64,000 nucleotides of DNA from Burkholderiales bacterium. GTDB taxonomy: Bacteria; Pseudomonadota; Gammaproteobacteria; Burkholderiales; Burkholderiaceae_E. Shown here one piece after another: positions 26,551 through 33,066 of the stretch. Both the position numbers and the translations under genes were made by a program. Each line of letters starts with the position of its first letter. Position 1 is the stretch's first letter. Below the pieces are notes generated by a model. The model did no database searches, was not told the origin of the DNA, and was given only the letters and a program-made list of their open reading frames with translations. The stretch covers positions 1 through 64,000 of the forward strand of contig JAPLQE010000046.1 of assembly GCA_026399835.1 (NCBI GenBank), read 5' to 3'.

Positions 26551-27342
26551 TTATCGGAGTGGAGCGGCGACAGGCGGCGCGAGCCCGAGCGTGGCGAGCT
26601 TCGCGTCGACCGCCTCGGTCCAGCCGCGGTTGGCCGCGGGGCTCGCCGGGCTCGGATGCAGGATCTGCCCGATGTGCACGCCGCGTGCGAACGCACCGTC
26701 GACGAGCTCGCCCTCGAGCACGCCGCGCAGCCGGCGCTCGGCGAACCCGCCCACGCCGATCGCCCACTGCGGCCCGAGCGCGGCGAGCGTGCGGGCGAGG
26801 TGGCGGTCGCAGGCCGCGTACACCGGCTCGAGCTCGGCGGCGGGCAGCTGGACCGGCGTGCGGTTGCGTCCGGAGGCCTCGAGCCACACCAGCGGGCAGT
26901 AGTTGAGGACGAAGGCGTCGGCGAAGAACGATTCGGCGCCGCCCCAGCGGGCCGCGGCCCAGCCCCACAGGCGTCGGCCGCTGACCTCGGAGCGTGTGCA
27001 GGCGAAGCCCTCGATCGGGCGCTTCGGATGAATGCCGGCCGGCTGCCCGACCGGCGCCTCGATGCCCATCCAGCCGCGCACCGCGGCGATCTCGCCGAAC
27101 GGCACGCCGGTCTGCATCATGCCGAACGGACCCGGGTTCATGCCGAGCAGCACGATGCGCTTGCGCGAGTCGCCGTAGCGCCGCACGTAGGCCTCGTAGG
27201 GCGCCCAGGCGTACTGCAGCGGGTCGTAGACGTGGGCCACCGGCGCCGCGAAGCGCAGCGGCGCGAGCTCGGCGGAGAGGTCGCGGGCGGCCTCCAGCAG
27301 GGCGCGTGCGACCGGCGATGCGGCGGGCAGGAGGGTGGGCAT
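26551..27342 (-). CDS. SMUG1-like uracil-DNA glycosylase
   Basis: A 263-residue DNA glycosylase. The uracil-binding segment [18 protein letters not shown] contains the asparagine used by SMUG1 enzymes, and the second active-site loop is [14 protein letters not shown] with its histidine. It removes uracil or oxidised pyrimidines from DNA to start base-excision repair. The ATG at 27342 (MPTLLPAAS) is chosen because in-frame sequence further upstream reads through the terminator-like hairpin at 27436. It is the first gene of the operon with the spermidine-synthase fusion and purT. Confidence 0.9.
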
Positions 27343-27429
27343 GGGGCGCCATCCTACCAATGCGGCCCGCGGAGGTCGGCGGGGACGGTCGGAGAGGGTG
27401 GGCAGCCGTTGGAAAAAGGGCGCCGGAAA

Positions 27430-27459
27430 CGAAAAGGGGCGCGGTCGAGACCGCGCCCC
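27430..27459 (-). terminator. Strong intrinsic terminator
   Basis: A perfect 11-bp stem on the minus strand, GGGGCGCGGTC and GACCGCGCCCC around a two-base loop (27436-27459), followed by TTTTCGTTTCC. It is the only hairpin with a clear T-run seen in the window. It ends a minus-strand transcript that starts upstream of the glycosylase gene. Confidence 0.8.
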
Positions 27460-27554
27460 GGGGCCGCGGGTGGCGGCTCCTGCCTTCGGCGTGGCATCCG
27501 GCCCCGGAGGCATCGTTGCACCCTCGGGTCGAACCGGCCTGCTGGGCCTTCGGA
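27430..27554 (-). ncRNA. Candidate small RNA or regulatory leader upstream of the glycosylase gene
   Basis: The 346-bp gap between the glycosylase start and the cupin gene has no convincing coding capacity. On the minus strand it holds a promoter-like pair, about 125 bp of structured GC-rich sequence, and a strong intrinsic terminator. Internal short hairpins include GGCC and GGCC around CAGCA, and GAGG and CCTC around eleven bases. No known family (6S, SRP RNA, tmRNA, RNase P or the common riboswitches) was recognised. It may be a free sRNA, or a leader whose terminator controls the glycosylase-purT operon 88 bp downstream. Confidence 0.5.
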
Positions 27555-27560
27555 GACCCC

Positions 27561-27589
27561 ACGCTATGCCTCGCGGGGCCCGCGGTCAA
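27561..27589 (-). promoter_or_regulatory. Candidate sigma-70 promoter of the small RNA/leader
   Basis: On the minus strand, TTGACC (27584-27589) and TAGCGT (27561-27566) are separated by exactly 17 bp. Initiation would fall near 27554. The -35 matches five of six consensus bases; the -10 matches three of six. Confidence 0.5.
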
Positions 27590-27689: not shown

Positions 27690-28226
27690 GTGAACAAGCC
27701 GCTCGACCCGAAGGTCGCCGAGACCGACCGCATCCCGTTCCAGAAGCCGCAGCCCTGGGGCATGGCCCCCGACATGGTCGTGCACGACGTGCTGACCGAC
27801 GACGAGCGGCTGTGGGCCCCCGTCGCGCCCGGCATCTGGTCGCGCCCGCTGCACCTGAACGTCACCGGCGGCTTCTACGTCCACCTGCTCAAGGTCCAGC
27901 GCTCGGGCCTGCTGCAGCGCCACCGCCACTCGGGTCAGGTGCATGCCTACGTGATCCGCGGCAAGTGGCTGTACCTGGAGCACGGCTGGGTCGCCGAGGA
28001 AGGCAGCTACGTGTTCGAGCCGCCCGGCGAGACCCACACCCTGGTGGTGCCCGACGACTGCACGGACATGATCACGATGTTCACCGTGCACGGTGCGCTG
28101 ATGTACGTCGATCCGCAGGGCGTGTCGACCGGCTACGACGACGTGTTCACGCGGATCGACAAGTACCGCGCGCACTTCGAGTCGGTGGGTCTGGGCGGCG
28201 ACTACGTGCGGCGCTTCATGCGCTGA
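27690..28226 (+). CDS. Cupin protein, 2,4'-dihydroxyacetophenone dioxygenase-like
   Basis: A 178-residue cupin. The start is a GTG with GGAG six bases upstream; longer in-frame starts would read through the RNA candidate region. The first cupin motif is HRHSGQVHAYVIRGKW (two histidines and a glutamine/tyrosine pattern) and the second is YVFEPPGETHTLVV with its histidine. This layout resembles the ChrR-like cupin of 2,4'-dihydroxyacetophenone dioxygenases, Fe(II) enzymes that cleave C-C bonds. Many homologues are uncharacterised, so the activity is a family-level guess. It converges on the EAL gene with 43 bp between stops. Confidence 0.75.
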   Translation: MNKPLDPKVAETDRIPFQKPQPWGMAPDMVVHDVLTDDERLWAPVAPGIWSRPLHLNVTGGFYVHLLKVQRSGLLQRHRHSGQVHAYVIRGKWLYLEHGWVAEEGSYVFEPPGETHTLVVPDDCTDMITMFTVHGALMYVDPQGVSTGYDDVFTRIDKYRAHFESVGLGGDYVRRFMR

Positions 28227-32904: not shown

Positions 32905-32912
32905 AGTGGGTT

Positions 32913-33013
32913 GCCGGGTCGCCGGGTCGCCGGGTCGCCGGGTCGCCGGGTCGCCGGGTCGCCGGGTCGCCGGGTCGCCGGGTCGCCGGGTCGCCGGGTC
33001 GCCGGGTCGCCGG
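32913..33013. repeat. 8-bp tandem repeat, 12 perfect copies
   Basis: GCCGGGTC is repeated twelve times without a mismatch (32913-33008), ending with a five-base partial unit. It fills the gap between the convergent qor and terC stops. The unit length is not a multiple of three, and no gene uses it. Slipped-strand copy-number variation is expected for such an array. Confidence 0.97.
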
Positions 33014-33066
33014 CGTCGGTCGGGGCGGTCGCGTTCGGATGGGGCGGGGTGGGCTCCGGTGCGGGC

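Follow-up and report, generated by a model that had tools for sequence, protein, structure and literature searches.

A lineage-specific structured RNA of Burkholderiales, usually encoded upstream of SMUG1 and probably a stand-alone small RNA

We identified a structured RNA family that is real, specific to one taxonomic family of Burkholderiales, and absent from Rfam 15. One member lies in the window, the 64,000-nucleotide stretch of DNA analyzed here, in the gap between a divergent cupin gene and a gene for a SMUG1-type uracil-DNA glycosylase. Judged on its sequence, the RNA is very likely a free small RNA (sRNA), and we consider it probable that it is a stand-alone, structured regulatory sRNA that acts in trans, is restricted to this family, and has its own sigma-70-type promoter and intrinsic terminator. 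A poorly studied Burkholderiales lineage thereby gains a covariation-supported RNA family, and because that lineage includes the named isolate Zeimonas arvi, expression and function are directly testable. The features of the locus are as follows.

27584..27589, minus strand: −35 box TTGACC of the RNA promoter, read in the window sequence and unchanged in genus mates G008 and G011
27561..27566, minus strand: −10 box TAGCGT after a 17-nt spacer, read in the window sequence and unchanged in G008 and G011
27432..27554, minus strand: small RNA gene of about 123 nt, with 123/123 positions identical in G008 and 112/123 in G011; member of a family of 22 loci
27483..27553, minus strand: central imperfect hairpin of the MFE fold; its counterpart in genus g8 shows covariation
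27463..27477, minus strand: 3′ hairpin GCCGC-CACCC-GCGGC, loop consensus YACYC, supported by loop counts and both-sided stem changes
27432..27459, minus strand: intrinsic terminator with a 10-bp stem and TTTT, found by terminator scan and aligned in all relatives
27351..27356, minus strand: TAGGAT, likely −10 box of the glycosylase gene; same motif in G008, G011, and the RNA-less G005
26551..27342, minus strand: SMUG1-type uracil-DNA glycosylase gene (Pfam UDG, 9.6e-9; PDB 5h93, Geobacter SMUG1, 3.6e-77)
27690..28226, plus strand: divergent cupin gene (ChrR-type cupin; Pfam Cupin_7, 8.3e-20)

The initial annotation had placed a TTGACC-17-TAGCGT promoter, about 125 bp of structured sequence, and the only clear T-run terminator of the window in a 346-bp gap, and all of these held up. 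We measured the gap at about 347 bp from the cupin start (27690) to the glycosylase start (27342). The promoter is present on the minus strand and its hexamer pair recurs across loci; by consensus it is weak (8/12), under the threshold of the promoter scan, which does not report it. The 5′ end of the RNA was inferred from the position of the −10 box (±3 nt). The fold of the RNA shows a moderate gain in stability over shuffled sequence (z-score −2.15; 2 of 200 shuffles were equally stable). Among the terminator candidates of the scanned window, this one stands far above the rest, with a stem (27459-27436) of 10 pairs, 9 of them G-C, a loop of 4, and TTTT at 27435-27432; the remaining candidates have 5- to 9-bp stems without a real T-run, and their counts are near shuffle level. 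Elsewhere in the window, positions 32908-33018 hold a tandem array of the 8-mer GGGTCGCC (13.8 copies, 98% match), close behind a quinone-oxidoreductase-like gene.

A DNA search recovered the element in 2 of 11 genus mates. The copy in G008 is fully identical, against 90% and 81% identity in the flanking intergenic DNA, and the copy in G011 aligns without gaps at 91.1%, against 72% and 23% in the flanks (the 23% reflecting mostly a deletion); the surrounding DNA thus diverges faster than the element. Weak DNA matches in other genera had the 3′ end and the TTGAC promoter in common. From the 3′ module we built a first covariance model, R1, which gave 21 strong matches and one weaker match in the taxonomic family and, in an order-wide search, matches outside the family down to 3e-9. 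We inspected the nine best of these outside matches singly and found ordinary G+C-rich terminators without the 3′ hairpin. A second model, R2, built from 13 sequences with more hairpin diversity, detected the RNA in 22 of the 74 family genomes (7 of 16 genera), always as exactly one copy, with E-values from 1e-14 to 5e-6, which like all the covariance-model E-values are rough. In a sample of 399 Burkholderiales genomes, R2 found no copy beyond the family, and the outside matches of R1 were gone. Because R2 includes sequences that R1 had found, the strongest independent evidence comes from two features that are part of neither model, the recurring promoter and the location ahead of SMUG1. Among the named records that carry the RNA are Zeimonas arvi and several Lautropia and Burkholderiaceae metagenome assemblies.

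Of the 22 loci, 21 retain the promoter. Among 21 distinct tabulated loci, 19 have TTGAC paired with TAnnnT at a spacing of 17-18 nt, and one more has CAGACT as its −10 box; counted separately, a −35 box TTGAC[C/G] occurs in 20 of the 21 and a −10 box TAnnnT in 19. Beyond the tabulated set, locus L070 has TTGACT...TAAGGT. The RNA ranges in length from 123 nt in the window genus to about 183 nt and is ordered, 5′ to 3′, as an optional 5′ hairpin, a long central hairpin, the 3′ hairpin, and the terminator. The extra 5′ hairpin of the longer versions varies in sequence with its pairing kept. The base of the central hairpin reads UCC-GAC...CGA-GGA in most copies and CC-GAA...GAA-GG in the window, forming a purine-rich 3x3 internal loop (GAA/GAA in the window and GAC/CGA in other species). 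The 3′ hairpin follows the consensus AGCCGC-YACYC-GCGGCU with a near-invariant loop (CACTC 14, TACTC 4, CACCC 3). The G019 copy (L070, also L006) has a further hairpin, GGGCCGCCTCGCGCGGCC, that separates the conserved 3′ hairpin from the terminator.

Covariance analysis in relatives, a check proposed with the initial annotation, revealed both-sided compensatory changes above shuffled controls in three alignments. The 3′ module, from which the inserted hairpin of one row was manually cut out, had 4 such pairs vs. 0.8 in shuffles (reached in 0/500), and slid versions had 0-1. A full-length alignment of one g8 group had 6 both-sided pairs vs. 2.3 shuffled (2/500), with one slid version reaching 4, and one of another g8 group had 6 vs. 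2.8 (3/500), with slid versions at 0-1. These alignments are small (5-13 sequences) and their members related, so the counts support the structure but are not probabilities.

No known RNA family had been recognized at this locus, and the Rfam search agreed: the window RNA had no credible match in Rfam 15 at gathering or relaxed thresholds, and among the loci of 19 relatives no family exceeded its gathering threshold for the RNA. We rejected 6S RNA, as there was no RF00013 match and 6S lies at another locus in the RNA-positive genomes G008, G011, G017, and G018. A search for 6S in the window’s own genome found none, possibly owing to an assembly gap or divergence; all 11 genus mates have an RF00013 match, some weakly. 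The bacterial small SRP RNA was likewise rejected, with no RF00169 match at the locus and the genome’s SRP RNA encoded on contig C63. A small open reading frame was rejected on inspection: the ATG at 27513 is missing in G011, and the frames differ among relatives. Literature searches returned nothing on this RNA.

The initial annotation had left two options, a free sRNA or a regulatory leader governing a glycosylase/spermidine-synthase/purT operon. The free sRNA is supported by the conserved promoter and terminator, the covarying helices, the single copy in each of 22 species, and the lack of an Rfam match. As a leader, the RNA would have its promoter drive SMUG1, its terminator serve as a regulated or constitutive attenuator, and the short RNA be the attenuated product. 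The gene order speaks for this: SMUG1 follows the RNA immediately on the same strand in 20 of 22 copies, across genera and though the upstream genes differ, a linkage that exceeds what a free sRNA needs. Moreover, in most of g8, SMUG1 starts shortly after the terminator, often within only 20-60 nt of the T-run, and this stretch is CT-rich and has no visible −10 box. SMUG1 does not, however, always follow the RNA without a promoter of its own; usually it has a putative leaderless one. In the window, TAGGAT ends 8 nt before the glycosylase ATG; in genus g1, in L055 (G070), L054 (G034), and L060 (G088), in G025, and in the RNA-less G005, TAnnAT-like boxes likewise stand about 8 nt before the SMUG1 ATG. 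Such a box near the ATG suggests, in the absence of a ribosome-binding site, a leaderless SMUG1 mRNA from its own promoter. Across family SMUG1 genes we noted this arrangement, a TAnnAT about 8 nt before the ATG and no ribosome-binding site, in the window (27343-27356, minus strand), L055, L054, L060, L148, and L152. At L152 (G005:C44), in a genus mate without the RNA, a secreted or outer-membrane-like open frame fills the gap between cupin and SMUG1.

Adjacency to SMUG1 holds in 20 genomes and is broken in two. Independence of the RNA from SMUG1 rests mainly on G025, where the RNA, with promoter and terminator, lies beside a cupin gene and is followed by a convergently oriented acyl-CoA synthetase gene; this genome encodes SMUG1 on another contig, behind a TAACAT box of its own. 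In G019, the RNA and SMUG1 are separated by a YhhN-like gene. Conversely, SMUG1 is present in 66 of 74 family genomes, 44 of which have no detectable RNA, so most SMUG1 genes do without one. Nor did we find a conserved antiterminator partner for the 5′ arm of the terminator: partners differ between sequences, and the alternative pairings gain mostly 4-9 kcal/mol (two reach 12-16) vs. 14-23 for the terminator. The SMUG1 boxes, G025 and G019, the RNA-less SMUG1 genomes, and the lack of an antiterminator together favor a free RNA, and we regard the leader as unlikely. The operon-leader proposal is mostly unsupported, with read-through in g8 as a possible exception, and the speculation that it senses a purine or polyamine signal is not supported: within reach of the loci read, a spermidine-synthase gene stands behind SMUG1 at RNA-positive loci only in g1, G034, and G070. 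Most of g8 lacks a visible promoter for SMUG1; there, the simplest source of its mRNA would be transcripts that start at the RNA promoter and read through. A dual-purpose RNA, at once a free trans-acting sRNA and, through partial read-through, a setter of SMUG1 level in g8 (Zeimonas and relatives), is a possibility to which we give a low probability. If true, an sRNA regulon and base-excision repair would be coupled in g8 through a single promoter; the strong SMUG1 linkage itself raises the testable question of whether a DNA-repair gene is fed by sRNA read-through.

Two further readings differ in what they ask of the RNA itself. It could work by binding protein, as a CsrB- or 6S-like sponge or scaffold, instead of by base pairing. 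The strong conserved fold, the conserved loop, the purine-rich 3x3 internal loop, and the scarcity of long unpaired stretches would suit such a role; on inspection, however, repeats of GGA are missing and its GGA motifs are not kept from one genus to the next, and 6S RNA is already encoded elsewhere in the four RNA carriers named above, which makes this reading improbable. More doubtful still is that the locus is a mere terminator next to promoter-like sequence, without RNA function and kept by common descent. The weakness of the consensus matches taken alone and the modest fold z-score are what it has in its favor. Against it stand the slower change than in the flanks, the compensatory changes, and the single-copy recurrence over seven genera with the same loop core, and we give it very little credence.

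For the preferred reading, a free trans-acting sRNA, we infer a mechanism. The RNA would be transcribed from its own sigma-70-type promoter, would end at its own intrinsic terminator, and would most likely act in trans by base pairing. The most conserved unpaired element is the YACYC pentaloop, which a rigid G+C stem presents immediately ahead of the terminator, and it is the best candidate for the seed or contact. At its variable positions C and U are the only bases that occur, which is what pairing with a target G would lead one to expect; C-to-U changes at both Y positions would keep pairing with the G of a purine-rich (GRGUR) target, and a purine-rich ribosome-binding site would fit as such a partner. 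The T-run, at 3-5 U, is short and not ideal for Hfq, which counts against a free sRNA.

Compared with known systems, the RNA shares with riboswitch and attenuator leaders a promoter, a structured RNA, and a terminator ahead of a gene. It differs from them in having no alternative antiterminator, no large invariant aptamer-like block, and no constant downstream gene. Its longer versions resemble 6S RNA (RF00013) in length and in their long imperfect hairpin; 6S, however, occupies another locus in RNA carriers, and the new RNA has a separate 3′ hairpin and terminator. Betaproteobacteria_toxic_sRNA (RF02278) and anti-hemB (RF02837) are, like it, short betaproteobacterial intergenic sRNAs with a hairpin and a terminator, but they have a CUCCUCC single-stranded motif and otherwise different sequence, and the RF02278 model did not match the new RNA in any relative scanned. 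G070 does carry a copy of RF02278 (L055:311-369, plus strand), which scores 50.4 bits, slightly above threshold; it precedes the promoter of the new RNA by about 115 bp, so that two sRNA genes stand in tandem. Finally, apart from its short T-run and the lack of a match to any described Rfam 15 family, the RNA resembles the general class of trans-acting bacterial sRNAs with a terminator-proximal seed hairpin, sharing with them a sigma-70-type promoter, a length of 120-180 nt, several hairpins, an intrinsic terminator, and a small exposed C-rich loop.
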